DNA of 64,000 nucleotides from Zygnema cylindricum (lineage: Eukaryota; Streptophyta; Zygnematophyceae; Zygnematales; Zygnemataceae): contig JBBHKE010003383.1 in the NCBI GenBank assembly GCA_037447655.1, forward strand, positions 166,380-230,379, in the 5' to 3' direction. Positions 18,598-63,727 of the stretch are shown one piece after another. The notes under the pieces were generated by a model. It saw nothing but the letters and a program-made list of their open reading frames with translations. It was not told the DNA's origin and did not search any database. Position 1 is the first letter of the stretch, and each line of letters starts with the position of its first letter. A program made the translations under genes and the position numbers.

Positions 18598-18763
18598 AAA
18601 ATCCACCCCACCTCCACCGAAGAAAAAATCCCCCCCACCTCCACCGAAGAAAAATTCCCCACCACCTCCACCGAAGAAAAAATCCCCACCACCTCCACCG
18701 AAGAAAAATTCCCCAGCACCTCCACCGAATAAAAAAACACCCGTTTCTTCCCCTCCACCTTGA
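18598..18763 (+). pseudogene. Frame-shifted rest of the extensin tail
   Basis: Beyond the TAA at 18595-18597 the +1 frame keeps coding for the same type of repeat (PPPKKKSPPPPPKKNSPPPP style) for about 56 codons. It ends PVSSPPP and TGA at 18761-18763. Compared with the earlier copy at about 18361-18385, roughly five bases are missing at 18588-18590. The original protein therefore probably ran to 18763, about 440 residues. A sequencing error could also explain it. Confidence 0.6.
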
Positions 18764-25376: not shown

Positions 25377-26134
25377 TGTTGGTTTTGGAAACCTTTAGTC
25401 CTCTCTATATCTCGTGTGTGAGAAAGAGAGTCTAGACTTACCCAGTTTTTGTGTATAGACTGAGTTGACGTAGACAAGATGTGGTGTGGTATGTAACTCC
25501 AAAGGGAGTTCACAGATTTGGTACACTCTATGTACACGTGTCGGTCCGTGGGGAAGTCAAGCTTGGTTGAGTTGGTTGACAAAGTACATATTTACTTGAG
25601 GGACCAGATTTACACGTGGAGGTTCATCTTCGGTGATGAATGAATACGCGGACGGCGGACGGAGTTCGCCGTCATTTTTGGAAGAGAAATATTGACCGAA
25701 CCGTCATTTCAGTGGACTAACTTTGACTGCGTATTTTAGCAGCGGCTAGGGTTAAGGATTGATGTAAATACTTGTGCGGTAGATGGCGGGGTTTAGTTTG
25801 ATTAATGTTTAGTGTATCGACACACCACGGTAAATGTGGTACGGTTTAGATCAGCTGTAGGTTCACTTTGTATATGTAGGACTTAGAATATTTTGGAGTT
25901 AGGAATTCAGTGAATGGAAAACTGCGAAGCAGTTTTTGTGTCTTTTTGAATTGCAAGATCATTGTGATCTTTTGGCAAAACCCTCTGAAATTCTGCATGT
26001 GGTTTCTTTGTTATGCTATTTATATTGTGGAAAATTTGCATACCTAGTGTGTGTCTCGTTTGCTTGGGGCTTCATTGTGAAGTCGATCTTTTTGTGGTTT
26101 CCGAGAGAGTTTCCTCTTTTGTAATCTGAATATT
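25377..26134 (+). repeat. Copia C family LTR 2 with 5' leader
   Basis: It starts TGTTGGTTTTGGAAACC and reaches the gag ATG at 26135. It is very similar to LTR 3 (30374-31130) over the whole length, with the same spacing, so these two are the LTR pair of the nearly complete unit 2. Confidence 0.75.
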
Positions 26135-26942
26135 ATGGCAACTGCTGGTGCTTCTTCTTCCTCCTCTGGGTCACTGGTTGCCTCAAATCAACAGGTCACG
26201 GGCCCACCCTCACGGATCCTGGTGTTTAATGGCTAAAAATATTTATATTGGGCGGATTTGACTAAGTCTTACCTTAAGCAAGGGAGATTGTATGATATGA
26301 TTTCCGGTGTTCTTCCGGATACGGATTCTGATTTTGAAAAGAAAAATGAGGATGCATTTCATGTTCTCAAACTACTCTTTTCCGAAGATCTGAAATGACA
26401 TATATCAATATCTCTAAAGCATCTGATATATGGAAGGCTTTGCGGGAGTCATATATCCTAGCTAGTGAGCAGAATGAGGTTATAACTGCTGGGAAAATTT
26501 GGGATTATAAGTATACCGGGAGTGATATGAACTCCTATTGTAATGGCTTGAAGCTTTTGTTGTTGGAAAATGCATGTTCCCGGGGGAATTTTGCTCCATA
26601 TCATCAAGCTATGATTTTAATGAGATGGCTTCCTGCTGAATATTAAGGAGCCGCGGAACAATTGAAAAGGTTGGAGAAGGCTAGATGGAATATAATTGTA
26701 GCTGAAGCTTACATTCTAGAGGAAGAGGCAACTCAGATAGCATTGAATGGTGGAAAATCAGCGCTAGCGTAAAATGCTCAGACATATAGGCCGGCTAGAT
26801 TTTCCGCAAATAGGAACTTCACCCCTAATCCTAATTATAGGCAATATGATAGGTGTGTATATTGCTTCGGTCAAGGTCATGTTTTCCGGCTGTGCCCAGC
26901 TTTAATAAAAGCGTGTGAAACAGGAATTTACTGTGCGGGATA
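26135..26942 (+). pseudogene. Copia C unit 2: gag
   Basis: The frame starts MATAGASSSSSGSLVASNQQ and has the RILVF-like region, an in-frame TAA soon after (AATGGCTAAAAAT), a one-base shift before TYINISKASDIW, and further stops. The zinc knuckle CVYCFGQGHVFRLCP survives at about 26850-26895. Nucleocapsid-type RNA packaging is its known family role; this copy cannot make it whole. Confidence 0.75.
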
Positions 26943-26946
26943 GAAG

Positions 26947-28260
26947 GTGCGATCGGAGGAACCACCTTCAAATGGGTCAACACCAAAACTGCCGGTGAAA
27001 AATGCGGCGTTCCTTACATTTGATGAGACGCCACAAGACGAATCGTTGGGGGAAAAAGATGATGTGGTCAGATTTCCGCAATTGGAAGATGATGAGCTCT
27101 TTGCCCTTGCAAAAGATCTCATGGAGGGGCCTCAAGAGAATGGATGGATTATGGACTCCGGGTGCTCTTCCCATATGTGCGGCAAACGGACTTACTTCAA
27201 AACCCTTACTCCGATTCTGACTCGTCGAATCTACTACGCGGGTGATAGCGGTGTGGAGGCTACGGCAAAGGGAAGCGTGGAGTTAGCATGTGACATCAAT
27301 GGTCAGATTGTAAAGAGAACCTTACATGATGTTCTCTATATTCCAAAGTTTAAGAAAAATTTGTTTTCCACTTCTGTGGCTGAAATGAAAGGATTTGAAA
27401 TTTTGGAAAAGAATGGGAAGAAGGTAGTAAGCAAAGATGGGAGAGTAGCCTTGGTAAGAACTAGAGGCCCAAACTTGTTGTACCGGATGGACTTTGCTAA
27501 TGAAATTGACTTTGCATACTCAAGTGTCCTTCCGGAAAATGTTTTGTGGCATAAGAGGCTCGGTCATGTTCATCGAAAAACTTGATAAAATGGTGAAACA
27601 AAAAATGATAGATGGGGTCATATTAGGACAAAAATATTCTCATGTATGTGATGGTTGTGCTTTAGGGAAGCTTCACAAGCTGCCCCTACCTCAAACCGCG
27701 GATAACCGGGCTACGGATTTGCTGCAAATTATTCATTCGGACGTGTGGGGACCGTCTAAAGTCCCTTCCCTTAGTGGCAGCCGGTTTCTAGTTACATTTA
27801 CGGATGACTTCTCGCGGTACAGCAGAGTTTACTTCATGAAGGAGAAGAGTGAAGTGTTCACTCACTTCAAGCATTTCCGGACGTAGGGGGAAAAGCTTCA
27901 CGGGAAGCCGATTCTCTCTCTTCGGTCCAACAACAGGGGAGAATATATTTCGAATGCATTCTCGGATTATTTAAATGAACACGGCATATCTCGTCAGTTT
28001 AAAGTTCCCTATACTCCGGAGCAAAATGGAGTATCCGAAAGACTTAACCGGACTTTAACGGAGAGTGCAAAATCTATGATGTTGGATAAAGGGATAGATT
28101 TCAAGTTTTGGGGTGAGGCTTTCTCTTGTGCATCCTATATTAGGAATAGAATAGAAACTAAGGCGGTAAAGGGGAAGACACCTTATGAAATGTGGACCGG
28201 AAAGAAACCCAATGTAAGTCACTTTCGGGTTTTTGATAGTAAATGTTTTATTTAAGATAA
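26947..28260 (+). pseudogene. Copia C unit 2: protease and integrase
   Basis: Protease motif WIMDSGCSSHMCG lies near 27150. The integrase zinc region has LWHKRLGHVH and VCDGCALGK. The catalytic core shows HSDVWGP, TDDFSRY and EQNGVSERLN, so the D, D, E residues appear present. A shift at about 27575 (CATCGAAAAAC) separates the protease frame from integrase. TAG at 27883-27885 replaces an expected tryptophan codon, and TAA near 28253 breaks the end. Known role: polyprotein processing and cDNA insertion. Confidence 0.75.
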
Positions 28261-28305
28261 TCTTCCTATTTCTAAGCTTTATCCAAAATTTGTTCGGGAA
28301 TTTTT

Positions 28306-28769
28306 ATGGGTTATGATGATGAGTCAGTAGGCTATAGGGTTTACAACCCAGATAGGAAAACTCTTCAGGTTGCTAGGAATATTCAGCTTAAGGAAGAAAG
28401 TCAATCGGTCGATGTTTTTGGAATGACAAATTTTGAGAAAAATGCAAAAAATCAAGAATATGTAATTTTTAAAAATGTTCCTCTTTCCTCTTTCACAAGT
28501 TCTTCCTCTATTCCTACTCCGGTCATTCCTGTTGTTCAACATGTACAGCAAGATCCTCCTCCTCCTCCTCCTCCTCCACCTCCTCGGCGGCAGCGTACGG
28601 ATCCAATGTACAGCAAGTTCCTCCTCCTCCTCCTCCTCCTCCTCCTCCACCTCCTCGGCGGCAGCGTACGGATCCAAAAGTTCCAGCCTCACATTTTCCG
28701 GGGGGAAGAAGGCAACGCAACAGGCTGCGAGGTGAACCGGCGGAACATGCCCTATTTTCTGCAACCACA
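28306..28769 (+). pseudogene. Copia C unit 2: integrase tail and proline linker
   Basis: MGYDDESVGYRVYNPDRK and QVARNIQLKEE are the usual integrase C-terminal segment. It leads into a CCT/TCC run that codes for polyproline. The block of CCT repeats plus CGGCGGCAGCGTACGGATCC is present twice in tandem (about 28550-28600 and 28620-28672), which shifts the frame before the RT ORF. Confidence 0.65.
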
Positions 28770-30350
28770 ATGGAGCCAGTCACCATACAGCAAGCCTTTA
28801 CAGCCCCAGAAAAGGATCAATGGATCTCCGCGGCAAATGATGAAATGCGATCAATAATGGAGGCTAAAATTTGGGAGCTTGTGGTGCTTTCGCCGGATCG
28901 AAAGGCCATCGGATGTAAGTGGGTTTTTAAAGTTAAGCTAAATCTAGATAATTCTATTGAAAGATATAAGGCTAGGCTTGTTGTAAACGGGTATAGTCAG
29001 AAGGAGGGAATTGACTATGAGGAGACTTTCTCTCCAGTTGTCCAGTTTCCAACTGTTAGAATTCTTTTGTCTTTAGCAGCCATTGAGGATATAGAACTCC
29101 ATCAAATGGATGTTAAGACAACTTTCTTGCATGGAGATTTAGAGGAAGTGATTTATATGAGGCAGAATGAAATGTATGCAGAGACCAGAAAAGAAAATCT
29201 GGTCTGTAAGCTATGGAAATCTTTCTATAGTCTGAAGCAAGCTCCACGTCAAAGGAATCTGAAACTAGATGAGTTTCTAACTGGTCTCGGTTTTGTGAGG
29301 ATTAGTTCAAATTACTTAGTCTATGTTATGGAAGGGGAAGATGGGATTATTAACATTGTTGTGTATGTAGATGATTTGCTGCTACTGAGTAAGTCATTAA
29401 ATGAGATTAAGAAAATAAAGACAACATTGAATTCGAGATTTGAGATGAAAGATTTAGGAGAGGCAAAGTATATTCTCAGGATTCAGGTAGAAAAGGATAG
29501 AGATAGGAGAATAATCTATCTAACACAATGGGAAGCGATTGGGAATATACTTGAGAAGTTTGGCATGGCAGAGGCAAAGGGAAGTGCCACTCCCATGGAA
29601 TTCAAGCAAAAGGTGGAAGGCATGCAGACCGAGGGAGGAGTCATTTTTGATGACACCTTGGAATCAGGGGAGGCAAATTCTATGGCTGCCATTCCATATC
29701 GTCATATTGTTGGCACCCTAATATACTCCATGAACTGCACACGCCCGGACATCGCAACTGCAGTTGGTGCTCTAAGCCGAAGTTTACAAAATCGGAGGAG
29801 ATCGGATTGGGAGGCAGCAAAGAGGGTCCTTCGGTATCTTGCAGGGACACGGAATCTACAACTCGCTCTCGAAGGAGAAGAGGTCAAGATTCAGACTTGG
29901 AGCGATGCGAGCTACAAGGACATGCCAAGCCGACGCTCCACCACCAGATTCATTCTAAAGATCGGAAGTGGAACATGTTGCAGGAGAAGCAAGCTTCAGA
30001 AAGTCACAACTCAGTCTACAATGGAGGCTGAATACATGGCAGCTATCTCAGTTGTCAAGGAGTTACTTTGGGTAAAGTCACTCTTTCAAGAACTTCACAT
30101 TATGCAATCAGGACCTCAAATAGTGTGGTGTGACAACTTGGCTGCTACAGCGATTGCATCTTACCCAAGTCATCACTTCAAAAGCAAGCACATTGATATA
30201 AAGTTGCATTTTGTAAGAGAGAACGTGGTGTACAGAATTTTAAAACTCTGTTATTTGCCGGATGAGATGATGGTAGCAGATATGATGACTAAGCCTTTAC
30301 CTGCACCTAAGTTGAAGTTTTGTAGAGAGGCATGTGGACTTAAAGGCTGA
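28770..30350 (+). CDS. Copia reverse transcriptase and RNase H, open frame
   Basis: A 526-residue open frame, the longest in the window. It has the RT start GCKWVFKVKLN (about residue 48), YKARLVVNGYSQKEGIDY, HQMDVKTTFLHG, the catalytic box VYVDDLLLL (about 197-205), CTRPDIATAVGALS, and the RNase H part with SDASYKD (about 376), STMEAEYMAA (about 416) and VWCDN (about 451), ending ACGLKG and TGA. The ATG is internal to what was a gag-pol polyprotein, so it is not a true start. Several usual residues are changed (QAPRQRN where W is expected, ILRIQ where G is expected, CRRSK where W is expected). It is probably inactive, though not interrupted. Confidence 0.8.
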   Translation: MEPVTIQQAFTAPEKDQWISAANDEMRSIMEAKIWELVVLSPDRKAIGCKWVFKVKLNLDNSIERYKARLVVNGYSQKEGIDYEETFSPVVQFPTVRILLSLAAIEDIELHQMDVKTTFLHGDLEEVIYMRQNEMYAETRKENLVCKLWKSFYSLKQAPRQRNLKLDEFLTGLGFVRISSNYLVYVMEGEDGIINIVVYVDDLLLLSKSLNEIKKIKTTLNSRFEMKDLGEAKYILRIQVEKDRDRRIIYLTQWEAIGNILEKFGMAEAKGSATPMEFKQKVEGMQTEGGVIFDDTLESGEANSMAAIPYRHIVGTLIYSMNCTRPDIATAVGALSRSLQNRRRSDWEAAKRVLRYLAGTRNLQLALEGEEVKIQTWSDASYKDMPSRRSTTRFILKIGSGTCCRRSKLQKVTTQSTMEAEYMAAISVVKELLWVKSLFQELHIMQSGPQIVWCDNLAATAIASYPSHHFKSKHIDIKLHFVRENVVYRILKLCYLPDEMMVADMMTKPLPAPKLKFCREACGLKG

Positions 30351-34016: not shown

Positions 34017-34839
34017 TGTTGTTTTGGAAACCTTTAGTCCTCTCTATATCTCGTGTGTGAGAAAGAGATTTCGGACCTAGTCGCTTTTGTGTGCGGGTTG
34101 ACTTATCGTAGAAAGGTTTGTAGTGTGGTATGTAAGTCCGAAGGGAGTACACGGATTCGGTACACTCCAGGCACACGTGTTGGTTATTGAGGAAGTCAAG
34201 ATTGTTTGTTCCGGACGACGAAGTAAAGTTTCATTTGGGGACCAGGTTTACATGTGGAGGTTCATCTTCGGTGATGAAAGAATGGGCCAACGGCGGACGG
34301 AGTCCGTCGTAATTTTTGGAAGAGGAATAATGACTCAGTCGTCATTTAAGCGGGTGAACTGGTCCGTGTGAGCCACATACACGACAAATGACGTGGCATA
34401 TAGAATCCTACTCCTTTGTAAATATCTAGTTAAGTAGATTTTTGTCTTTGTGTGGTTAGTTGATTAGTAAAGGAATCTTTTTGTATGACGTACCTTGTTC
34501 GGTTCGAGCCGCAGGTATTTATTGTACGGCTGGTATGCCTCCGTACGTTCAGCAGCATAGGCTTCGGTGTATATTAGTAGGACTTAGATAACTTTGAAGG
34601 TATGAACATTTTGTAGTCAAAAACTGTACAGCCTGTTTTTGGCATTTTCATCTGTGGATATCTCACAGATCTGTTAGCAGAATTACTTGTAATTTTGTGT
34701 GTATGTTCATCTTGATATTATCTACACTGTGGTAGATTTTCAGAGCTATTGTGTCTCTGGTTTGGGTTTTATCAACTGTTGAAGTTGCTGTTTTTCAGAC
34801 TGGTTTTTGTGAAAGTTTCTTGCTTGGTTTGGTTCCGAG
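34017..34839 (+). repeat. Copia LTR 5, chimeric
   Basis: The front (34017-34360) is the copia C type and nearly identical to 36490-36833. At 34361 it switches to the LTR 4 type (34361-34478 matches 32641-32757), and then continues as that subtype to a new gag ATG at 34840. It is a recombinant LTR. Confidence 0.7.
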
Positions 34840-36489
34840 ATGACCACACCGGCATTCTCATCGTCTTCGGTTCCGGCTGTTGTCTCAGAAAAACACATAC
34901 AGGAGGCTTTTTCAGCTCCAAAAAAGGTCAATGGATCTCCGAGGCGAAGGATGAAATGCGATCGATAATGGAGGCTCACACTTTGGAGCTTGTGGAACTT
35001 CCGCCGGACCGAAAGGCAATCGGCTGTAAGTGGGTCTTCAAAGTTAAGCTAAATCTAGATTATTCTATTGAAAGATATAAGGCTAGGCTTGTTGCAAAAG
35101 GCTATAGTCAAAAAGAGGAAATTGACTATGAAGAGACTTTTTCTTCGATTGTCCGATTTCCAACTGTTAGAATTTTGTTGTCTTTAGCGGCCATTTTGTT
35201 ATCTTTAGCGGCCATTGAGGATATGGAATTACATCAAATGGATGTTAAGACAACTCTCTTGCATGGAGATTTATAGGAATTGATGTATATGAAGAAGCCT
35301 AAAATTCATGCAAAGACCATAAAAGAAAATCCGGTCTATACGCAGCTGAAATCCTTGTACGGTCTGAAATAGGCTCCTCGTCAATGGAATCTGAAACTAG
35401 ATGTGTTTCTAACCGGTCTTGGCTTTGTACAGATTAGTTCAGATCAATGAGTCTACGTTATGGAAGATAAGATGGGATTATTTACATTGCGATGCATGTA
35501 GATGATTTGCTGCTGCTAAATAAGTTATTAAATGATATTAATAAAATAAAAGCAGCCTTGAATTCAAGATTTGAGATGAAGGATTTAGGGGAGGCAAAGT
35601 ATATTCTTGGAATTCAAGTAGAAAGGGAAAGAGATAGGAGATAAATCTATCTAACGCAACGGGAAGCGATAGGGAATGTGCTTGAAAAATTCGGCATGGT
35701 AGAGGCAAAAAGAAGTGCCACTCCTATGGAATTTAAGCAGAAAGTGGAAGGCATGGAGACCGATGGAGGAGTCATTTTTGACGACACCTAGGAGTCAAGG
35801 GAGGCAGATTTTATGGCCACCATTCCATACCGGCAGATTTTCGGCAGCCTAATCTACTTCATGAACTGCACAAGGTCGGAGATTGCAGCAGCAGTTGGTG
35901 TTTTGAGCCGGAGTTTGCAAAATCCGAGGAAAACGGATTGGGAGGCAGCAAAGAGGGTTCTTTAGTACCTTGTAGGGACACAGAATCTTGACTTCCTCTC
36001 GGTGGAGACGAAGAAAACATTCAAAGTAAGCGGAGACATGCCAAGCTGCAGTTCCACCACCGGATTTATTTTGAAGATTGGAAGTGGAGCATGCTGTTGG
36101 AGCTGCAAGATTCAAAAGGTAACAGCTCAGTCTACAATTGAAGCTGAACATATGACGACAAACTCAGCTGTCAAGGAGTTCTTGTGGGTAAATTATCTCC
36201 TTCAACAACTTCATTTCATGCAATCCAAACTTCAAATAGTGTGGTATGATAACCAGACAGCTATTGCAATTGCATCTAACCCGAGTAATCACTTCAAAAG
36301 CAAGCACATTGATACCAAGTTGCATTTTGTGAGAGAGAAGGTGATGAACAAAATTTTGAAACTTAGTTATTTGCCGGATGAGATGATGGTAGCCAATATG
36401 ATGACTAAGGCAATACCGACACCTAAATTGAAGTTTTGCACAGACGAATGTGGACTTAGTGGTTGAGAGAGTCTAAAGGTTTAGCGGAA
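34840..36489 (+). pseudogene. Copia unit 5: gag start fused to RT and RNase H
   Basis: A gag start of the other subtype (MTTPAFSSSSVPAVVSEKH) runs directly into the start of RT (QEAFSAPKKGQWISEAKD). RT continues in frame to TAG at about 35274, with a small internal duplication (ILLSLAAI twice). The remainder follows unit 4 base for base, including its stops, and ends with RNase H (STIEAEHMTTNSAVKE) and TGA at 36464-36466. Gag body, protease and integrase are deleted at one junction with CATACAG microhomology. Confidence 0.75.
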
Positions 36490-43869: not shown

Positions 43870-45040
43870 TGACAAAATGTATCCCTCAACCAAAGACTTA
43901 TTTTGTTTCAATCCCATTTTTTTTTATATTTTTTTAATACCGTATTTGTCTTATTTTTCTCGACATCCTTCATTTCTTTGTCATTTTTTATTGCGATTTC
44001 CCCTCTCAAAATTTTGCCATATGCCTTATTTTTTTATTATTTTTTTTCATGTTTAGTCAGATGGTTTACCGTCCCATGTCCTCAAATAAATTTTATTACT
44101 TTATTGATTTAATTATTTATTAATTAATTTATGTATGCAAAGGTCATTACCCATTTTCACAAAAAAAAAAAAAAGATTTATGACAAAGATAAATAAGAAA
44201 CACAACCATCCAAACTATATTCGATTTTTAATTGTATCCTAATTCTTGACATTTTTCTTCTTTTTAACGACTTTCAATGTTCTAATGTTAGATTACATTA
44301 AACGGCTCTCTTTCTCTCCCTCCCTCCCTCTCCCACTCCCTTTAAAAACTTTCATTCCTTCCCTCCCTCTCCCTCTCCCTTCTCTCTCGCTACTTTTCAC
44401 TCACTACCTCTACCAAAAAATAAGCAGCAATCTTTCACCTCTCTCTCTCCTCTCCCTCACTCTCTCTCTCCCTCTCCCTCTCCGTCTCTCTCTCTCTCTC
44501 TCTCTCTCCCTCGCCCTCTCCCTTTCCCTCTCCCTATACCCAAAAAGTCCTCCCGCAGTTTTCAAAAAGCTGTAATAAAAATTAAAAATCACCTCGCACA
44601 ATCCCAACAACACTTCTCCGAAAACTTTTCGCTGCCCGAAACACCCGAAAACTTTTGTTTCCCACTTTCCTTCTCCGTTTCTTTCCCAAATTCTATCCCT
44701 TTCGATTTTTTTTCGTTTTTCGTTGATTCTTCTTTTTTCAACGATTAAATAACTTAAAAAAACCTTAAAAAACTTAAAAAAAACATGAAAATTCATAAAA
44801 AAAACCACAAAAAAGTAAAAAAAAACGAATACAAAAAAATAGATAATTGAAATAAACTAAAAAAAAACCAAAGAGAAAGCAAAAAAATGAAACCCTATCG
44901 CAAAAAAAATAAGAATAATCAAAAATTGAAAAGAAAGGCACACGATAAAATACAGTTTAAAGTGGGAAACGAACATAAATAGATTAAAAGCAAATACAAA
45001 ATTTAGTATTTTATGAATACATACCTCACTTGAACACAGG
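43870..45040. other. Low-complexity AT and CT tracts
   Basis: No gene seen. 44300-44540 is CT-rich (CTCCCT, CTCTCT runs) and 44750-45000 is A-rich on the plus strand. The open frames here are by-products of base composition. Confidence 0.5.
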
Positions 45041-45069
45041 TGTATGGCTCCATCCCCAATTTTTTTTCC

Positions 45070-45780
45070 TTGTGCTTTCTTTCGGCCAACTTTAACCAAA
45101 ATATTGAAAACCCTTTGAAATCTTCGAGAGAATACGCTTCTCTTATACCTTCTTGGCGATCTTCATGGTTATTCTTTTTAAAATTTGAAGTATTTTTTTT
45201 TTATTATTGTAAAAGTTTTTGAATGATATTGTTTCCTAAAAGGTTTTCACCCCCCCCTCTTTTTATAGCTAACTGAGTTTAATATTCGTCTTCGAGTCTT
45301 TTCACCCATTGTATGAGTGTGTTGTAGCTCTTATCTTTGTTATTCTCTAATAGTCCAATAACCCCATCAGGTGTAATAGCTACATTTGGGTGTCCTTGTC
45401 CACTTCAAAAAAATTCATACTGATTTAAACCGTTTCTATAGGCTGATGCAGTGTTCGGATTATGTTGTTTTAAAGTGTCTCTAATAATACGTTGTCTTTC
45501 TGACTCGCTATACGGTGGTGGGATTTTTATTCCTACATTGCTATCATCATCATCTAAGTGAACTACCTTCTGACAGTTTCCAAATGTGAGCCCTAATACA
45601 ATACTATGTATAATTTGGAAAATTCGTTTACGCCAAGAAAACATTATAAAGACAAAGAAAATAATAATAAGAAAATCCTCTAAAAGATGTAATTCAAAAG
45701 AAAAAATGTTAAAAGAAAAACGGGTGAAAGAAGGAAAAAGTAAAAGATGGGAAAAAGAAAAAAAAAAACGGAAACACAAA
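45070..45780 (-). pseudogene. Tyrosine-recombinase element, N-terminal piece
   Basis: The minus frame ending at about 45280 reads PPYSESERQRIIRDTLKQ, HNPNTASAYRNGLNQYEFF, a TGA, then SGQGHPNVAITPDGVIGLL and NTLIQWVKRLEDEY. A further exon-like stretch at about 45190-45072 reads EDRQEGIREAYSLEDF and KGFSIFWLKLAERKHK. NT..AY....YEF and RE.YSLEDF....FWLKLAE fit the N-terminal core-binding part of Ndc10/Crypton-type recombinases. It lies on the wrong side (lower coordinates) to be the 5' end of the element at 49.1-51.4 kb. It therefore comes from another copy or from a rearrangement. Confidence 0.5.
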
Positions 45781-45789
45781 ACGAAAAAG

Positions 45790-46800
45790 AAAAGAAAAAA
45801 AGAAAAAAAATGATTTATGATTAAAAGAAGAAGATAAAGTAAAAAAATAGAAAAAAAAAGAAAAAAAAAATGTATTAATATATAGAAAAAAGATAAAGAA
45901 GTAAAAACAAAATAAAAACGACCAAACTAATCAAGAAGACAGTAACAAATTAAAATAAATAAAAAGACAAAAAGTTAATAATATTAGAACAAAAAACAAA
46001 TTAGTTGTAGGTTATAAGTTGTAGGCTGTAGGATTTAACTGTAGGTTTCAAAACCAAATACGTTAAAACAGTAGTCAAAACCAATCGTTAAAGTGTACCT
46101 AAAAGTTAAATTAATATAAGTCCATGTTTACGTACGTTTAAAAACAAATTGAAACGTAATTATTTTTGATACATACTAAAAGAGATTAGTTTACATTAAA
46201 GAGTAACAATTTGAAACGTAATAATTCACGATACATATTGAAAGAGCGTTGGTTTACATTCGAGCTTACGAAATTTCGCGGAGAGCTAATCTACATTGAA
46301 GAGTACGGAATTCAACATAACCACGTACGGAAATCCGCGCGGAGATTTAATCGACATTGAAAAGGACAGAATGTAACATTAAAGCGTACGGAATTCGACT
46401 AGTATAGTTACATTTGGGAGTCAGTGAATCTTACATGCGGATTCGCATTGTACTTTTGAAAACTTGAATGTAGATAACTTCTCCGCTTTCAAAATAACTT
46501 CTCCTCCTTTCAAAGTACTAGTTCAATGATGACCGTAGAATATTTTTTCAACTCTCCGCATATGCTCCTCATTTCAAGTAGCATACGAAAAAAATCGCCT
46601 GCGGCGCCAAACAACAATACCAAACGACAATATAACTGTACTTTTACTCTTTTGTTTTTTATGTCATACATCAAATGTTCTCATGTGACGCGCGGCTCAA
46701 CCTGTTCAATCTTTATCAACAGATTATTTGGTAGCACTTAAAGTGTGAACACTTATAAAATATTATAGATATTTTCGAGACACGAAGTCGATTTACATGT
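45790..46800. other. A-rich then GTAC/CG-containing spacer
   Basis: No gene seen. 45700-45960 is A-rich. A degenerate tandem pair of about 62 bp lies at 46143-46265. A second pair with CTCATG(T/A)GACGCGCG and TTTAAGTGTGAACACTT-like words lies at 46676-46765 and 46797-46880. Confidence 0.35.
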
Positions 46801-46969
46801 TCTCATGAGACGCGCGTGACAAAATTTGTAACGAATGCTATAGATAGGAACGCTTTAAGTGTGAACACTTCGTTTGTCATATTTTTTTTACATAATCTGA
46901 CCGAATCACCGCAGAGACTCCTTAAAAAAAATCTACACGCTTGGCACAATAATTTCTGTCGTTATCAAG

Positions 46970-47345
46970 TCCTACGAGGGATTAACATTGCCCGCGCAAA
47001 AACCTCCTCGAAGGTCTCCGCCGCCCGCCAAATAGACCCTCCCCCCAATGTCGAATACCACAACGGTATCTTGCTTTGCGCGGAGAGCAAACCGCCGGTA
47101 CAGGCCGAAACGAGGATACTTGCGGAGGGTCGAGGAGAGAAACGCCGGCTGCAGGATAACCTCGCGGAGACTCCCGCGGATGCCGGTTCGACACATTTCG
47201 AATTGGCCCGTGAAGACGTCACCGGGCCAGGTATACCTGTCGCCGGGCCAGGTATACCTTTGTTAGCTGGCGGCATACGGTGTCTCCCGGGAGGAAGCAA
47301 ACGGATGAATAGGTGCTTTCACGGCGGGCGATGTCAAAGTGTCAA
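46970..47345 (+). other. GC-rich, CpG-rich island with open frame
   Basis: The base composition jumps from AT-rich to GC-rich with many CpG. A plus frame (about 46816-47349) stays open through it, but so do several minus frames, so coding is not shown. CGGGCCAGGTATACCT occurs twice at about 47223 and 47238. No family is recognised. It could be a CpG island, a young insertion, or part of an unknown element. Confidence 0.35.
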
Positions 47346-47696
47346 GTAAAACAAAAAACAATAAAAGTTAAAAACCAACGCACGAAGGAAGGCGTCCCAA
47401 AAAAATAAAAAACCAAAAAACAAACTTGCTGCCCATTGCCGCTACGTTACCATTACGCCTATATCGTCGATCTCCTCGATACGGTGCTACTCAAAATAGA
47501 GTAGTTAATCATTCAATTTGTTGCTGGTCGGTTGGTCCTTAGCGGTCATAAGGCTTAATTATTTTTTTGGTCCCCATCGTTAATACATTTTTAATGCTGT
47601 TTAATTAAATATATTGTTAAAATTGAATGCATTAATCGTGATGTAATACAACATTTATACATAATATAACACAAATATAAAAATAAATACATTGAC

Positions 47697-48640
47697 TATC
47701 CGAATTAAATCTTGGACAAAAGGCATTTATAAAATAAAAAAATTCAACAAAGGATGAGAAAGGATGAGAATAGTTAGCCGTTGCTTTTATTTTGTTTTAT
47801 GGTATCACAAAACGAATAATATAACAAATTTTTCTCCCACGATTGATGTTATCGTTTTTCTATCTTACAATGTTTCAAGCCCGCCTATTAAGTTTTATAA
47901 ATACAACGACTACAATTTGAATAGATCATAATAGAGAAACTGTATTTGGTTTCTGTTAAGTTATAGTTTGTTATACATAATCCAAAAGCATTAAATAAAC
48001 CGTATTAATCTAACGTAATCATTCATAAAAAATTTGAAATATCCAATTAAGTATTCGACAAAAGGCATTTAAAAAAAAAACAAATAAACGATGATAATAA
48101 TTAGCCGTTGTTTTTATTTCCTCTTATTGTATCAAAAACAAAATATTGTAGATATTTGACTCCCACGATCGTTGTTATGATTTTCTTATCTTACAATGTT
48201 TCAAGCCTATTAAGTTTGAAAAACACGATGACTACATTTTTAATTGACAATGATAGATAAACTATATTTGGTTTGTGTTAAGTTATAGTTTGTTCATAAA
48301 AATAATAAAATATCCGATTAAGTATTCGACAAAAGGCATTTATTAAAAATACACCAAATAAATGATGATAAATTTTAGTCGTTGTTTTTATTTACTCTTA
48401 CATTATCACAAAGCGAAATATTGTAGATATTTGACTCCCACAATCATTGTTATGATTTTTTGTATTTTACAATATTTCAACCCTATTAAGTTTGACAAAC
48501 ACAACGACTACATTTTTATTTGACCATGATAGATAAACTATATTTGGTTTGTGTTAAGTTATAATTTGTTATATAAACCAAAAAACTTTAACTAAAACTT
48601 TTTAGCCTAACGTAATTGTTTATAAAAATAATGAAATTAA
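47697..48640. repeat. Three-copy satellite-like repeat
   Basis: Units start at 47697, 48040 and 48311. Each begins TATCC(A/G)A(T/A)TTAA, has GACAAAAGGCATTT, TTAGYCGTTGYTTTTATTT, CTCCCAC(G/A)AT, TTTCAA and TTTGGTTT(C/G)TGTTAAGTTATA. Unit 2 lacks about 70 bp at its end. They lie next to the 3' side of the recombinase element. Confidence 0.8.
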
Positions 48641-49115
48641 AATCATATACATATAGAATTAGTGTGTGTGAACACGATATCCAACTTAATGATGAAAACA
48701 CAGTAGGCAGCAAATATTGAATAATTTATTTTGTAAATACTAATTAAAATAAAAATATTTATGAAACAGGTTACAATAAACATTAACTTCGACAACATCA
48801 AAGGTTACAAGTATTTCTTTATGATATTTGTGAAACACGTTACAACAAACATTAACTTCGACAACATCAAAGGTTAAACATCTTTTTTAATCAAATAATA
48901 AAACAAGTTAAAATAAAAGAAAAAACAAATAAAACATAAACATATCATGGGCCGAAAATAACAAAAATATAAGCAAACTCATTACGTGAGTTTGAATTTA
49001 TAAAAAAATCAGTTTAAATACACATTACATATTATTATATATGTCTATAGAAAGTTTTTAAAGCAAAATAAAACACGTTTATAATAAGTGCCAAAACAGT
49101 CCCACAAACTACAAT
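48641..49115. other. AT-rich flank, short direct repeat
   Basis: A 40-bp direct repeat (TTACAA(T/C)AAACATTAACTTCG and following ACAACATCAAAGGTTA) occurs at about 48770 and 48840. Otherwise nothing is recognised. The 3' end of the recombinase element may lie here. Confidence 0.35.
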
Positions 49116-51420
49116 TTAGTTTTTTTTGTTTTCAGTCGCTAATCTCCTTGATATGTCGCGCAGACTCCATTTGTTCACGAATTGGCGATCTTGCAACCTG
49201 CTCAATGCCGTACTTAATGTTACATCATTTATCTCTCTTATTCCTTTAACTTCCTCCAAGATGATATTCAAATTATAAAACTTTCGATATTCTCCTTTCC
49301 TCCAACTAGTTCCACTTGATTCCAAATCGGCGATGGAAGGGAGCCCACCTATACCATCATGGTATGCTTGCCACACATCTTTAACCGTGTGAATTCGCGC
49401 TCCAATTTGAGTCATCGAAGGTACTTGATAATATTTTTCTTATGAAGGAATAGGAGGTGGAAAGGGTTTAGTTGCTCGTGCCGTTTCCACATGAGTTTCA
49501 TGTTGCTCCTCTTCATTTCGAAGAAGATCGCGTTCAAGAGTCTCGATTCCCATCGCTGATTCACCTTCTGACGGTCTATTTTGATTTTGAGAAGGATATC
49601 TTACATGAAACGCCTCTCCTTGACCATCCATCATCTGCATAATATGCGTTAACTTATCATCTATACTACACATTTTCTTATTCAAACTTGAAAGTGTCTC
49701 TTTTACATAATACATTTCTTCTCCCATGTAATCAATCTTTCTTCCATAAGTTTCACTCTACATGAATAGCGAATCAACTGATTTTCCCACTTGTGAGATT
49801 GTAATCGGCACATTTGATTTGGTATCAGCAATTGAAGCCTACATGTCTGATGCTTCATAACGAGTTTTTTTGACTTCGTCTTTGAACGACGACCACAAAC
49901 GGGAATGGAAAAGTTTGTGCTTGAAGATAGGAAGATCAGGAAACAAATCCTGGAAAAAAACAGGGTCAAGTAAAAACACACTTTTGAGCCATAACATGGT
50001 GTGAAAGAAATTTTGTGCGCTTAAATCTCTTTCAGATTTAGAAGCTCGAGCATTTTTATGCACAAAAAAACATTTGTATGGTTCAATATAAAAATAATTC
50101 ATTAAGATTAAAACAAAAACAAAAAAACAATGCATTAAATATATATAAAAACAAATATACAATATAAAACAAAAAAATGTGACAACGAGAGAAAAAAATA
50201 AAAAGAGATTGAGATGGAAAGAGAAAAACAAAACCAATTAAAGGAATACAAAATTACCGGAAAAACATATAAAAAACAACATAAAACAAAAAAGCAATTG
50301 AAAAATTAGAAAAACAATTGAAAAGACAAAAAAAATGAAAATAAACAAAAAACAATAAAAAAACCGATATAAGTGATACAAGAAAAAAAAATAGAAAATA
50401 TATAAACAAAATGTGACGAACATAAAACACCAAAGATTACTTAACACAAAAAGTAATGATAGAAATGGTGAGAGTTTTTATAGACATACTGTTGGCAGCT
50501 CAACATATGTCGTTTAGACCCACGGCCAAAACATAGCACAAAGAGTAGCAGGGGGTTTCACTCTGGAACGAGGTAGAAAATATTTTTCGTGGCCAGAAGC
50601 TTAAAGAAGAATGTTCGTTGGCAAATCCGTGACATATGAGTATGAGAAGTGGTCGGATGTCCAACGTCCCATCACTTTGATGGCTTCTCGATCAGCACTG
50701 AAATATTTACCATAAAAAAAATCAAAATTTCAAAAACGAGAACATAAATAACAAAACTTCTTTATTTCAAATAAATGCATGAATAAAAATCAAATGTTAA
50801 GTTTACAAAAACGCACCCTCTTGTCGCCAACATCGTTGCTCCTTGAGAAGTCTGACTTGGGTTTTATGAGACAAGAAAACATTTTTGGTTTGGAATGTTT
50901 TTTTTTATATATTGAAACTGTGTATTGTAGCAAAGAGGTTGCATGATCGGTGTTTCTTTTCCTTCTTGGTCTTTCGCTAAAATTCTCCCTTCCGTGAAAG
51001 GCTCACTATACCAAGTATCTTTCGTCGAAAAATTGGGAATTACATTTTTATTTGTAGCTAATTCCCACCTCCAAAAAAATTGTTGGGCCACAGCACCTAC
51101 CGGACAAATAAGAAAGTCTAAGTGACGCATGCATCAGATAAATTATGCACGACCGTTCTGCGGTAAAAAATTACCATAAAAAAACTGAAAAGAATTAGTA
51201 AAATTTGTTTTTGGGTTATGCATAAAACATTATAAAAATACACATTTCATTAAAGCTCCACTTTTATAGATTACTTACCACATTACTTTTCCCATTTCTT
51301 GTAACCATCGCCAAAACATAACTCTTGTCCGGCCTAAGATAAGGAAGATCATACGAAAAAACATCCGCTAGGAATCATCGCCTCGACTAAGACATGCATG
51401 GTTCAGGATAAATTGACTCC
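49116..51420 (-). mobile_element. Crypton-like tyrosine-recombinase element, decayed
   Basis: Reading minus from 51420: FILNHACLSRGDDS; after a shift DLPYLRPDKSYVLAMV and TRNGKSN; at 51130 HLDFLICPVGAVAQQFFWRW; a 119-bp intron (50816-50698, GT/AG) whose borders join ATMLATRG to ADREAIKVMGRW, followed by TSDHFSYSYVTDLP and KYFLPRSRVKPP, FWPWV; then NFFHTMLWLKSVFLL, FFQDLFPDLPIFKHK and SSFKDEVKK (to 49839); a coiled-coil-like linker (VKETLSSLNKKM); and at 49412-49116 TVKDVWQAYHDGIGGLPSIA, GTSWRKGEYRKF and RDISRRLA. The first blocks match the order of Ndc10-type recombinases (GRW box, catalytic YxY region, FLPR..V.PP, WPWV); the last matches GCR1_C. Stops at 50864-50866, 50601-50603 and 50514-50516, and loss of the usual H..R, show decay. 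The pairing is that of Cryptons. Confidence 0.7.
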
Positions 51421-51429
51421 TACAAAAAA

Positions 51430-52555
51430 CAAAAACAAAACACCAAAGAGACAAAAAATGACAATATTAAAAACATAATTGGAGCTTTGTTTTAAAAGAA
51501 TGTATGCTTTCTCCCAAAAAACAAAAATTGCATCACCAAAAAAATAAACAAAACAACAAAAACAAAAAAAATGACAATGTTACAAAAATAATTGGAGCTT
51601 TATTTTAAAAGAATGTATACTTTCTCCCAAAAACAAAAATTGCACATAAATTTCGTCTCTGTTTTAAATAGACTTTGGAGTTAACTTCTAAATACTTTTT
51701 GAATCGCGAAAAAACATGTGTATAAGTAAATATCCAGTATGTATGTTTTTTTTGAAAAAATCCAAATTCTCAATTAGCGTAAATAACGGTAATTGTTCCT
51801 ACACGCTAAAGAAACCTTTACGCGAATAACGATTCACGGTGTAGCGTAATTTTACTATTTTAGGTTGTTCAAAAGTATCGAAAACTCGCAATATTGCGAA
51901 TCGTAGATATTGGTGACCGTAGATTCTCAATTATTGAATGAATATCGTATCAGATTACATCGTTAGCATTTTCGTACGATGAGTAACGCTGAATTTAAAT
52001 GCACTTTTCCCACTGTGCTCCTACTGTGCTTCGACCAATAGGAGGACTGTACGGTATGCATTTTAGAATCTACTCTACCAATATTCTGCGTTGTCAAAGG
52101 TACTCCGTCCGATTTTTATTTTGATTTTTTTGAGCATTGTCGGACAGTTTGAAGCGATTAATGTACGGAATTTGGGGCTGTGTACCTAGCGCGGTTTTCT
52201 GCCGACTATTCAATGCCACGCTGGCATTCCAAGATCTGGATCTGACACTCAGACGCGATACAGACAAAGCACAGTCGATTTCCTGAGTCAACGTAAGATT
52301 TTATTAAAGATCGCAGTAGATTTAAACCGTAGATGCAGCATGATCTGGCGGCTCAGTTACTTACAAGGCGTTTTCTCTCCCTCCCGAATTTCCGTACCCA
52401 AAAAGTTTATATTGCTGGTAATACCTTGTAGCTATATTTGGTATCTTCGAAGATCGAGAAGCTATAACTTCTCCAGCGTGACAAATATATATTTGTCGTT
52501 TTATCCCGTCCAAATTTGCGGCTGATATGGTGTCGGATCCTTCGGAAAGATCCGT
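51430..52555. other. AT-rich spacer, 5' side of the recombinase element
   Basis: A tandem pair of about 100 bp (ATTGGAGCTTTRTTTTAAAAG and TTTCTCCCAAAAA) occurs at about 51450-51545 and 51551-51645. AACGATTCACGGTGTA near 51829 is an end-like motif of a Tc1/mariner-type MITE family. No N-terminal recombinase exon was found here. Confidence 0.35.
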
Positions 52556-52794: not shown

Positions 52795-52910
52795 CCGTAA
52801 TCGGGTATCTAAAATAGGGTTTGTAGGGTTAGTGTCATTGTTTTTTGTTTTTTTAATTAAAAAAAACCACGACCAAATAAAAAACCCTAAACATACGGTC
52901 GCGCGCAGAA
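52795..52910. repeat. Fold-back repeat family R3, copy 1
   Basis: The CGTAATCGGGTAT start, an AGGGTT...T-run, an A-run and ...AACCCTAAACATACGGTC end are shared with 53443-53575 and 55228-55365. The T-run/A-run pair lets each copy fold as a hairpin. Confidence 0.6.
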
Positions 52911-53442: not shown

Positions 53443-53575
53443 TGTGTCCACACAGAGAAGAGAGTCCCACACGCCGTAATCGGGTATGTCAATAGGGTCA
53501 TAGGGTTAGATTTGTGTTTTTTTATAAAAAAACAAAAAAAAAGAGAAATAAAATAACCCTAAACATACGGTCACC
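53443..53575. repeat. Fold-back repeat family R3, copy 2
   Basis: It shares with copy 3 the longer 5' part CACTGTGTCCACACAGAGAA (itself a small palindrome-like start) and CCCACACGCCGTAATCGGG. Confidence 0.65.
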
Positions 53576-54530
53576 TCCGGTCATAGAAAACCTTGTGTTA
53601 TAGCCTATTCCCACCGGAAAAAAAATCACTTCCGCAACAGACGGACGTTCGAATAATGTACGGCTTTTCGAGCACCGACTTTGCAGATTTCGGAAGTTCT
53701 CGAAAACCGTACAAACGAACTTCCTCAAAATATCGCCGGATATAGAAGTAGGGCAAAATTTGCGTCTTTCTGTAAAACAGGCCAATGGTAACCCGAAAAG
53801 CTGACGTAGGAAAAAAAACATTCGAACGGCTACTTCATTTGCGCGGTTCACACTTGGAAAAATGGGAAAACGATGTCATAAATTTTGGGATCCGTACGCC
53901 AAATTTTATAAAATGACAAAAAACGCGGCGGTGACGGTTGGGGCGGTTGGTTTCGACCGTTTTGGAGCGTAGCGGCGGACAAAAGATGCAGTTCTATGCG
54001 TCAAAACTCGACAGCTGCGTAAAGCAAACGGCAACTGCCGTCCGCCATCGGACATCATGTTCGGAATGCACTTTTTCGTTTTTGAAGAATTTCGAAAACG
54101 AAGAGCACGGACGTGAACCGTAGAAGAATTCATTCCGTCGCAAACTCATGAACAAACTAGGGGACCAATCACATAAGAGAACAAGTACTGTAAAAATAAA
54201 AAATAAATCACCAACGGAACCAAAAAAAAAGGGCATGTCCAAAGTTCCTTCGCGGTTATTTTCGGTCTGTACAAACGCTTGCGTGGCAGTACAGTGGTTT
54301 GGAAGGATTCGTACATATCATGTCGGCATAGCGTTTCTTTTTTCGTACGGACAAGTGGCTCGTATCACGACACGCTAGTTGACGTAGGCTAGCGTCACGT
54401 GCCAGTTCACGAAGGACAAAAACAAGTACCGTTTTCATACCATACCGTTTTCCCCTTTTTCAAGTGTGAACCACGCAGAGATTGTACAAATTGTACATTC
54501 GCGTAGCGCTGCTAGATATTTAAATCTGCG
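53576..54530. other. GTAC/CG-containing spacer
   Basis: Several short overlapping frames on both strands, none with a recognisable motif or conserved structure. No gene is claimed. Confidence 0.3.
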
Positions 54531-55227: not shown

Positions 55228-55365
55228 TATCACTGTGTCCACACAGAGAAGAGAAAGTCCCACACGCCGTAATCGGGTATGTCAATAGGATCATAGGGTT
55301 TGTGTTTTTTTATAATAATAAAAAAAAAAGATAAATAAAATAACCCTAAACATACGGTCGCGCAA
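55228..55365. repeat. Fold-back repeat family R3, copy 3
   Basis: Nearly identical to 53443-53575 over its full length. Confidence 0.65.
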
Positions 55366-55686
55366 AGAATACGAGGTGTGGCCTCAATCAACGCGCTCGC
55401 ACGTGCGAAAAGTTGCAAAAAACCGTAAGGTTTAGTACAGTACACCAAAATGGGTTGTGCCATTTCTTATACTTCACTGGACGGTGGAAATATCTTTATT
55501 GGCTGTATTTGGTTGATCAAACGACGTACATGTCGTTTCGCAACTTTTACACGGTGTCTTGTTAGTTTTACAATTAATTTTACACAAGATACCGTAATTG
55601 CTATTAGAGTAATAAAAATATTTGGAGGACTATTTCAACGTTTAGTAATTATGTGTTTTGTCCAAATGACATGGATCATTTCAACC

Positions 55687-60991: not shown

Positions 60992-61949
60992 AGCGCCGAG
61001 TTCGGGAAGTGGACCTTTTGTCTCTTTAGGCGAAAAAGTCCACTCTTTAACTTGTCTTCGGTGGTCAGAGTACTTTCAGTACGAAAAAATAATCAGTGCG
61101 CACGGTTAAACTGTGCACGCGCATATTTTTCCCTTAAAACCTCTCAATGAAGACAAGGTCTTCAATATGTGGCCTGTCTGTGGTCCTGCTCGATTTTGGG
61201 ACCTTCCACGTACAGACAAATGTTACCGTACATTAAAACTTGGAGCAACAGAGAGAATCTGATTTCAGAGAGAAAAATCTCTTTGAATATCCGTACAGAT
61301 GATTCCAAAATCTAAGATCTTATCTAGAGTTGTTACAAAATCTTACGCTTTGAATATAAAGTGCTTTATCCGAACAAATACCTAATAATGAGACCAACTA
61401 AACGACAATTTAAGAAAAATGACAAAGCGGTTGTCCGGTACAAAACCAGATTTGCTTGTATCTTCCAGAACTATGTACAAAAGCCAAGATCTTGTTGTCC
61501 TTCTCTCCTCCCCCAGATGGTATTTCGATCTCCCTCCTCTCCCCCCTATTGGCCCATTTTCCTGGCAGATCTTCGATTCTCTGACTCTCTAGCACCCTCT
61601 CAAAGTCACATATGGCGGCACAAGGCTCGTGCCTAGAAAGCAGACAAAAAATGTACGGCTTAATTCGTATGTTTTTCCGTACATTGTACCTGGCGCTTCT
61701 GGCCACCAATACTGTACGAATCGTATTACCTGTACGGCCCAAAAAGCTGCCGGCCAGTCATGCCAGTCGTCATGTTCGCTGGCCTCGCCCGCTTCACAGC
61801 TTCATATCACAGTCCACAAATTTACCGTTCATACCCAAACCCCTAAAGCGACGTCCGTACATCAAATCCGATTCTCCCGCATTTTCGTCGCACGTTGACG
61901 CCCGTCTATTCCTGCGATTCCCCTCCCACGATCACACGCTTCACTTCCC

Positions 61950-62003
61950 CCATCTCTCCCTCTCTCCCTCTCCCTCTCCCTCTCCCTCTCCCTCTCCCTC
62001 ACC
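61950..62003 (+). promoter_or_regulatory. CT-rich 5' leader of the FHA gene
   Basis: CTCCCT repeats directly before the ATG at 62004. Pyrimidine tracts of this type are common in plant core promoters and 5' UTRs. Function is inferred from position. Confidence 0.45.
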
Positions 62004-63727
62004 ATGGAGCCTCACCCTGATCCCTCTCCTGACCTTCCTAAATCCGACACAGGTTCCCTCCTCCCTCCTCCTACCTCTCCTCTCCCCTCACCCCTTCCGG
62101 TCACAGAAACGCGTACGCTTCCAGTTCCCGCTTCCGTTCGGCTGCCGCCGCCGGTTCCCCTTCCCGAAACGCCCTCCGTTTCGGTTTGGACCGCCGCGGC
62201 GCGATTGGCCCAAAAACTTTTGGTACCGACGCGGACCAACCAATGGGCGGCTTTGACCGCGATTTCCGCGCAAGCCTCGGAAACTACGCCGGAAATCGCG
62301 CTGTATCTCGGAGAACATATTTTGGGGCGCGGAGTCGCGGCCGCCGAATCTCGTTTGTCGGCGGCGGCCGTCAGCAGCTTGCACTGCCGAATCGTACGGA
62401 GACAAAGGACGGGTGACGTGACTGGGGAAAAGTACGACACGTGGATAGCGGATAGCTCAGCCAATGGGACATGGGTCAATCGGGAAAAACTGCCAAAAAA
62501 CGGTCCGGAGAAGATTCTTAAACACGGGGACGTTTTGTCTTTAGTGGCTCCTCCGGATGCGACGTTTTTGAGTCACCCGTTCTTGAACCGACCTTTAGCT
62601 GACGTGGCATTGTCGTATGTGTACCGTGAGGTGGCAGCGAACAGTGGATCGGTGGCAAGTTCTGAGGGAAGGAGGGATCCCGAAGTGAGGGAACAGCATT
62701 TGAGTGGGATAGAAAGGGGAAAAAGAAAACAAAATGAAGGTGGGATTTTGGAAGGAGGACCAATGGGAGGGGAGCAGCTGCAGGCAGGGGAGGGAGAGGA
62801 TAAGGCTAAGAGGATGAGAGGAATAAACAAAATTTATGAACAAGATTTGAGGCAAGAGAGAGGGGAAGGTTTGGAGGAGGTAAGGGGAGAGGCTGGAGAG
62901 AGTGAGATGGCGGTTTTGAGAGTAAAGTTGGAGGAGGCAGAACGAGTGAGAGCGGAAGCGGAGGCGACGATACAGCGGTGAGGCTGGGAGAAGTAGGGAC
63001 GTTGGGGATATGGACATGTAGGTTGGGAGAAGAGGGACGTTGGGGAATATGGACAATGTAGTAGGAAGTAGAAATTTACAATTAATTAGGTCATGTAAAA
63101 TGCCAAACATTAGTCTAAAAAATCGAAAAAGGGGCATTTCACTATGTGTGGGTGAGATGAACATGTTGTAATATGAAAACATTAGAAAATTGAAAATGTA
63201 GAGAACTAAACATTAGAAAATTCAAAACTGGACATTAGACATTCGTCCAATAGGCAGCTGAGATTGGGCATAACACATAAGATAATGGGAAAACAAGTAG
63301 ATTAGGCAAATTTTGGAATCAAGAATTGAACTTAAGTTGTTGGATTGAGAATGTTGAAGCAAGAGATTCAAAAAAATTGTCATCAATGAGCCGATATATG
63401 GAAATTGACATAAATGAGCATTTTCAACGCCATTCATGTTGTGTTGACATCATAAACAAAAAAATATGTTTCCAAGTTACAATCTCTCAAAAGCTTTTAT
63501 TTTCAGTCTCACCTAGAAATTTCTCTATCATTTGCAGAATCCATGAAGCAATTGCAGAACTACAACATCGACATGAGGACCACCATGGATTGACGTTATC
63601 TATGGAACTACCGATAAAGTCTCCCTTGCAGTTATCAATTCCGTTACAAAGGAAGGAACCTCAAAGTACTATGGAATCGGCATCACCCAAGACAAACATA
63701 AAAGAAGAGGGAGAGAAGGAATCCTAG
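62004..63727 (+). CDS. FHA-domain protein with C-terminal coiled coil
   Basis: Two exons: 62004-62977 and 63538-63727, joined at AG/CG-GTGAGG and TTTGCAG in phase; 1164 nt give 387 residues. Residues 1-60 are proline-rich and disordered. The FHA domain spans about 95-195: LGEHILGRG, then SSLHCRIVRR (S and H of the phosphopeptide site), DTWIADSSANGTWVNREKL (the NGT and N residues) and ILKHGDVLSLV. FHA domains bind phosphothreonine peptides, mostly in nuclear DNA-damage or splicing-related proteins. Residues 215-325 are charged, and the end (SEMAVLRVKLEEAERVRAEA across the junction to IHEAIAELQHRH) is helical and coiled-coil-like. No RING is seen, so CHFR/RNF8-type activity is not supported. 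ACCATGG is a good start context. The exon is GC-rich against its surroundings. More exons past 63727 are possible if the TAG is bypassed by splicing. Confidence 0.75.

Follow-up and report, generated by a model that had tools for sequence, protein, structure and literature searches.

A probable CryptonF-like DNA transposon family, with intact copies, in an assembly of Zygnema cylindricum

Cryptons are DNA transposons that encode a tyrosine recombinase, and those of the CryptonF group combine this recombinase with a GCR1_C domain in one protein, have short terminal direct repeats and lack a reverse transcriptase (Kojima and Jurka 2011, PMC3212892). CryptonS elements are also tyrosine-recombinase DNA transposons but, according to that paper, encode no GCR1_C, and CryptonA and CryptonI, which belong to the same broad type, have other domain structures. 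Table 1 of Kojima and Jurka lists Crypton hosts among fungi, animals and stramenopiles, and plants are absent from that table (PMC3212892). The same authors also mention a green-algal mitochondrial gene that is possibly derived from a Crypton (PMC3212892), so a link between Cryptons and the green lineage is not wholly unprecedented. Here we analysed 64,000 nucleotides of the Zygnema cylindricum assembly GCA_037447655.1 (contig JBBHKE010003383.1, positions 166,380 to 230,379 of the forward strand), which we call the window. It very probably holds two dead copies, A and B, of a CryptonF-like DNA transposon. We are just as confident of the assignment of the family itself, the intact element of which encodes a tyrosine recombinase, a linker and a GCR1_C domain. 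Full-text literature searches, judged at the level of titles and abstract openings, gave no report of CryptonF in plants. Further Crypton classes are named in repeat libraries, and some of these are perhaps algal. In the accessible portions of other sources, a plant review (PMC11630846) mentions Cryptons as no more than a rare class, the word Crypton is absent from a review of land-plant transposable elements (PMC9033089), a cryptophyte paper concerns other elements (PMC12220804), and a repeat table for Metrosideros labels 66 base pairs (bp) as Crypton-V (PMC13084152).

The original prediction, made from the letters of the window, had placed a Crypton-like element at 49116..51420, and an element is present there, but this span covers only exons 2 to 5 of copy A, which runs from 47064 to 51719 and adjoins the partial copy B. 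All the sequence blocks that it named lie on the minus strand, as it had said. Among the open pieces of this region, 49119-49439 matches Pfam GCR1_C (1.8e-9), 49842-50237 matches NDC10_II (2.8e-7), and 50867-51133 also matches NDC10_II (5.6e-5, alone below the curated cut-off). When the coding parts in the window are read through with X at stops, NDC10_II is found at 4.3e-13 and GCR1_C at 3.3e-8, and these matches are far beyond chance. The 119-bp intron that had been proposed is correct; it lies at 50698-50816 and is intron 3 of the four found in the intact copy L016. The copy had been called dead on account of three stops, and dead it is, but the damage is larger: aligned to the L016 frame, exons 2-5 contain 7 stops, 3 indels that shift the frame and one in-frame deletion of 12 bp. 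The 7 stops do not include an extra TAG that was created in exon 2 by a deletion of 13 bp. The H..R part of the active site had been thought unrecognisable, which did not hold. This box reads SHKTHAGRGQGA in the intact copies and SHKTQ with a 1-bp deletion in copy A, where it is present but destroyed.

The genome contains better-preserved relatives. A search of the assembly (352.8 Mb, 2,689 contigs) with the GCR1_C exon gave at least 77 matches on 63 contigs (E up to 0.001), some of which are fragments of one copy, in agreement with the proposal that this lineage carries a resident group. Twenty copies, each in a stretch of 10 kb except for one shorter stretch, were retrieved and compared among themselves and against the window. 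The reading frame was checked in 13 of the 21 sequences, as in the other eight, including the window copy, exons are missing, duplicated or rearranged. Eleven of the 13 have stops inside exons, and two, L016 and L025, are intact; these are copies of the kind for which the original prediction had suggested a search. L016 (contig C647) has five exons separated by four GT/AG introns of 469, 121, 119 and 461 bp and encodes 758 amino acids without a stop, and L025 has an open frame of 773 amino acids. In an hmmscan search the L016 protein matches NDC10_II at 1.2e-38 (133.4 bits, against a cut-off of 26.3), over profile positions 29-313 of 317, and GCR1_C at its C terminus at 2.2e-9 (37.9 bits, cut-off 23). 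NDC10_II is the family that matches this recombinase; the SAM-like N-terminal domain of Phage_integrase is found below threshold (0.17), and all the domains stand in the expected order. By motif, the catalytic residues would be R219 (in RGDD), H358 and R361 (in HAGR), W384 and Y393, an assignment that we take from general knowledge of tyrosine recombinases, and they are identical in L025. An intact element encodes one intron-bearing protein, in which an NDC10_II region that carries the R, H..R, W and Y motifs is followed by a linker resembling a coiled coil and then by the DNA-binding domain GCR1_C. Between L016 and L025 there are 0.34 synonymous and 0.064 non-synonymous changes per site, a ratio (dN/dS) of 0.19, which falls to 0.11 in the recombinase part (first 500 residues). 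This ratio, together with introns that are 79-87% identical, shows that the two proteins have evolved under purifying selection.

Tyrosine recombinases are likewise used by DIRS/Ngaro retrotransposons and by Starship captains, so the recombinase by itself could point to an element of one of these other types. DIRS/Ngaro elements have a reverse transcriptase beside the recombinase, and Starship captains are recognised by DUF3435. Neither a reverse transcriptase nor DUF3435 is among the Pfam hits of the L016 protein at E values up to 10. The 5' part of L016 in three plus frames and its 3' part in six frames, introns excluded, revealed no reverse transcriptase, no DUF3435 and no C48 peptidase; with stops treated as residues these non-coding frames gave three Pfam hits, all below cut-off. 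Moreover, the genomic copies retain their introns. We therefore regard an element of either of these types as extremely improbable.

Another explanation would be that the window contains pseudogenes of a host gene family, encoding DNA-binding proteins like Ndc10 or Gcr1, and no transposon at all. The yeast proteins Cbf2/Ndc10 and Gcr1 belong to the same two Pfam families as the element studied here. They are themselves such Crypton derivatives according to Kojima and Jurka (PMC3212892), and in the Z. cylindricum assembly there is a divergent NDC10_II gene, L029, that lacks the catalytic His and Tyr. L016 and L025 differ from the yeast genes in that they retain the catalytic motifs and the transposon ends. 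The units to which these genes belong have recurrent termini far beyond the gene; L016, L018 and L020 measure about 6.8-6.9 kb from end to end. A typical element starts with TACCG-TAGTGGTATTAGACATTGGGG and ends with GAAGCAGTA-TACCG. Of the 15 located 5' ends 10 carry an exact TACCG, as do 12 of the 17 located 3' ends, the window included. The first end patterns held part of this core, and a recount with core-free patterns gave 10/15 5' ends and 12/18 3' ends, in fetched sequence with a TACCG background of 0.52 per kb. The two ends of L016 do not form a terminal inverted repeat, since an in-register comparison matches 12 of 40 bases. Similar copies have different surroundings: L016 and L017 are 98.6% identical over 3248 bp and L018 and L020 97.0% over 6808 bp, each pair with different 3' flanks. 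Such an identity between copies with different 3' flanks indicates that movement was recent in evolutionary terms.

A target site without the element was also found. In L015 both flanks stop at one particular point of a repeat, and the 5' flanks of L009 and L024 stop there too; an unoccupied copy of this repeat in L011 reads AAAG-TACCG-TTGAGTT. When the L015 flanks are joined through GTACCGTTGAGTT, with the 5' core kept and the 3' core removed, they align to this empty repeat with 72% identity over 352 columns and no gap at the insertion point, which shows insertion at a single TACCG. In addition, window positions 54443-54477 are identical over 35 bp to the 3' flank of L017 and show CATACCATACCGTTTTCCCC without an element. 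For the window family, the L015 empty site argues against the host-gene explanation, to which we give almost no weight there; for L029 that explanation survives. A Crypton-type transposon, the identification that had first been proposed, is borne out by the many copies, the intact relatives with recombinase and GCR1_C, the recurrent termini and the empty site.

If the element moves as a site-specific recombinase element through a circle, insertion at a conserved core and tandems with a single core between the units are expected. In the window, copy A is joined by its 3' end, head to tail, to the 5' end of copy B through one shared TACCG core (47064..47068, minus strand), in the form ...GCAAGATACCG|TTGTGGTATTCG... 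A second case was predicted beforehand from two GCR1_C matches that lie 7.7 kb apart on the same strand of contig C990, and the stretch between them indeed contained a tandem, with three junctions of 3' end, core and 5' end and one decayed core at each. The ends, the empty site and the tandems fit transposition by a site-specific recombinase through a circle. The recombinase would cut at the core and excise the element as a circle carrying one core, and the circle would then recombine with a TACCG-like site elsewhere; if this target belongs to the terminus of an element already resident there, the product would be a tandem such as that at 47064. GCR1_C would presumably bind the end sequences of the element. 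We infer circle formation and enzyme activity from these sequence features, and the mechanism itself is not new, as it was already proposed for Cryptons.

Several points weigh against a CryptonF-like element that moves in this way. The core is not TACCG at 5 of the 15 5' ends and 5 of the 17 3' ends, the ends of L017, L020 and L024 read TACC|ATACCG, and the C990 junctions have decayed cores. L015 is the only copy for which both flanks were tested against the empty site, and its 3' core is TACTG. A target-specific 5-bp duplication made by another type of enzyme would look alike at single insertions, although a duplication with a target preference does not explain single-core tandems as readily. 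The catalytic residues are placed by motif and not by a structure, and eight of the 21 mapped sequences fall outside the frame check. Of the profiles first suggested for this locus, NDC10_II and GCR1_C match, but Phage_integrase stays below threshold in the intact protein (0.033, 14.4 bits, cut-off 27.1). Finally, no relative outside this genome was obtained, hence there is no tree with Cryptons of other hosts. Protein-database searches gave none at E 1e-3 with the window read-through and none at E 10 with the intact L016 protein. Searches of the PDB by sequence or with a two-row profile gave no related match and one unrelated chain at 0.14, and scans of viral contigs and genome contigs gave no relatives, the genome scan and one of the viral scans being weak as their patterns lay outside the conserved domain.

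Some further observations concern the ends and their surroundings. On contig C990, L032 (C990:135500-137700) is a junction array that includes two end-only units, measuring 58 and 78 bp from 5' end to 5' end. In L020 (9435-9786) and L024 (9373-9724, both in sense orientation) 352 bp beyond the 3' ends show 100% identity, after which the two sequences part abruptly, with no core at that point; a shared target, conversion and 3' transduction are candidates. In the window, 30-bp inverted arms at 53840-53869 and 54448-54477, 578 bp apart, resemble those of a miniature inverted-repeat transposable element. TACCATACCG adjoins the second arm, and the same arm borders the Crypton 3' end in L017.

As CryptonF elements are reported from fungi and oomycetes (PMC3212892), the copies might come from a contaminant of this kind and not from a plant-like host. 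The matches are spread over 63 contigs of a 353-Mb assembly, however, and the flanks of several copies contain repeats that recur in the window and in one another. The window itself carries Copia elements as well as a 5S ribosomal RNA (rRNA) gene at 576-694 (Rfam RF00001, 63.4 bits), which we take to be streptophyte-type. The Copia-type retrotransposon at 24694-30350 is degraded (RVT_2 at 5.2e-66 in 28473-30350, Pol_BBD at 1e-15 in 24694-25398), as is a Copia-type piece at 34716-35276 that was recognised by eye only. On the strength of the 5S rRNA and the Copia elements the host is probably green-algal. Given the 63 contigs and the shared repeats, fungal or oomycete contamination is unlikely, and we would leave it only a slight chance.

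Compared with CryptonF as described by Kojima and Jurka (PMC3212892), the present family has the recombinase and GCR1_C in one protein, a catalytic R-H-R-Y set as judged by motif, direct repeats at the termini and no reverse transcriptase in the frames scanned. It differs in its plant-like host, a kind of host that does not occur in Table 1 of that paper, in its 5-bp core TACCG as opposed to 6-bp repeats, and in the lack of a C48 peptidase in the L016 frames scanned, whereas some oomycete Cryptons have one (PMC3212892). Its dimensions also set it apart: the element measures about 6.8-6.9 kb, its non-coding ends are long, and it contains internal tandem repeats. It would thus be a CryptonF-like group that is new in host and dimensions. 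The green-algal mitochondrial gene has a green-lineage host as well, but going by its description it is a single DUF3504-type gene, whereas the present element is nuclear, multicopy and equipped with GCR1_C. The presence in a plant-like genome of a multicopy family, with copies that are intact and have been under selection, widens the range of hosts for the recombinase and GCR1_C pair, and raises the question whether this pairing is ancient or was transferred. The intact copies, termini and empty site provide material for testing the Crypton mechanism. It will also be interesting to see whether domestication took place in green algae, as it did in yeasts for the centromere protein Ndc10.

L029 (C623:61400-66400, minus strand) bears on this last question. 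A weak GCR1_C match (35% identity, E 4.0e-5) led to this gene, whose exons 3-6, when spliced, give an open frame of 470 amino acids that matches NDC10_II at 1.4e-27 and is 32% identical to L016. In the alignment, its introns 2, 3 and 4 coincide with those of L016 in both position and phase. The splice sites of this model were picked by GT/AG, frame and homology, and the first catalytic Arg lies outside the modelled exons 3-6. In the alignment with L016 the His of the H..R box is replaced by Phe and the catalytic Tyr by Arg, so the protein should be catalytically dead. Its GCR1_C match is below threshold (0.0051, 17.5 against a cut-off of 23) and is not listed for the joined exon 3-6 protein. 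Within these exons L029 therefore combines a retained NDC10_II, the loss of His and Tyr and an open frame, as looked for in a domesticated gene, and it resembles the yeast genes in this respect. L029 may be a domesticated Crypton gene or an old decaying copy. Possibly, though this is a tentative and rather doubtful extension, a CryptonF lineage is native to streptophyte algae, was recently active and is old enough to have yielded L029 as a domesticated, catalytically dead NDC10-like DNA-binding gene; if true, the green lineage would offer a counterpart to the way in which Ndc10 and Gcr1 arose in yeasts. Two other loci, L030 (C339:124300-125500) and L031 (C2488:96400-97500), are distant decayed fragments of the C-terminal part of the element and contain stops.

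The two window copies, both on the minus strand, can be described in more detail. Copy A (47064..51719) is truncated at its 5' side in intron 1, lacks exon 1 and has a complete 3' end. It is 94.9% identical to L011 over 4696 bp, and in a tree of exon 5 (18 of the 20 fetched copies and copy A), which has four groups, it falls with L009-L013 and L015. Twelve of the 20 fetched copies begin to match within 10 bp of its 5' truncation point. Exon 2, with the RGDD block, was placed at 51279..51419 by alignment to L016 exon 2 and contains the 13-bp frame-shifting deletion. It is followed by intron 2 (51158..51278, between mapped exons; GT/AG in L016), by exon 3 (50817..51157; the NGRA...CPVGA...H..R region, with two frame-shifting indels and two stops) and by the 119-bp intron 3 (50698..50816). 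Exon 4 (50491..50697), from GRW to SYSYVTDLP, contains the region of the catalytic Tyr and has the 12-bp deletion and two stops. After intron 4 (50058..50490, between mapped exons), exon 5 (49116..50057) comprises the end of NDC10_II, the coiled-coil-like linker and GCR1_C, with three stops. The 3' non-coding part of the element includes a 276-bp tandem repeat at 48022..48577 (no strand assigned), and internal repeats of this part are present in other copies too.

Copy B (44745..47068) retains the 5' end of the element with the 5' non-coding part, followed by exon 1 and a portion of intron 1; the remainder is missing. Its exon 1 (45025..45644) is a pseudogene with four stops and 84.4% identity to exon 1 of L016. 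Over 1026 bp that include exon 1, copy B is 99.3% identical to L028, and its first kb has only about 70-74% identity to other copies. As the break points of A and B seemed contiguous, we considered whether the two form one circularly permuted element. This was rejected, because B belongs to the L028 subfamily and extends further into intron 1, so that A and B are two copies.

The remainder of the window contains a few other features. A frame at 61899-62981 has an FHA domain (1.3e-9) and one database relative, with 71% identity over 60% of the query, and is probably a real host gene. Three related copies at 52841-52910, 53513-53582 and 55300-55369 carry AACCCTAAACATACGGTC beside AT-rich tracts, and this motif looks like a telomere repeat within a dispersed repeat. 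At 18097-18736 there is a long tandem repeat array with a 27/30-bp unit, which is open on both strands and proline- or glycine-rich in several frames.
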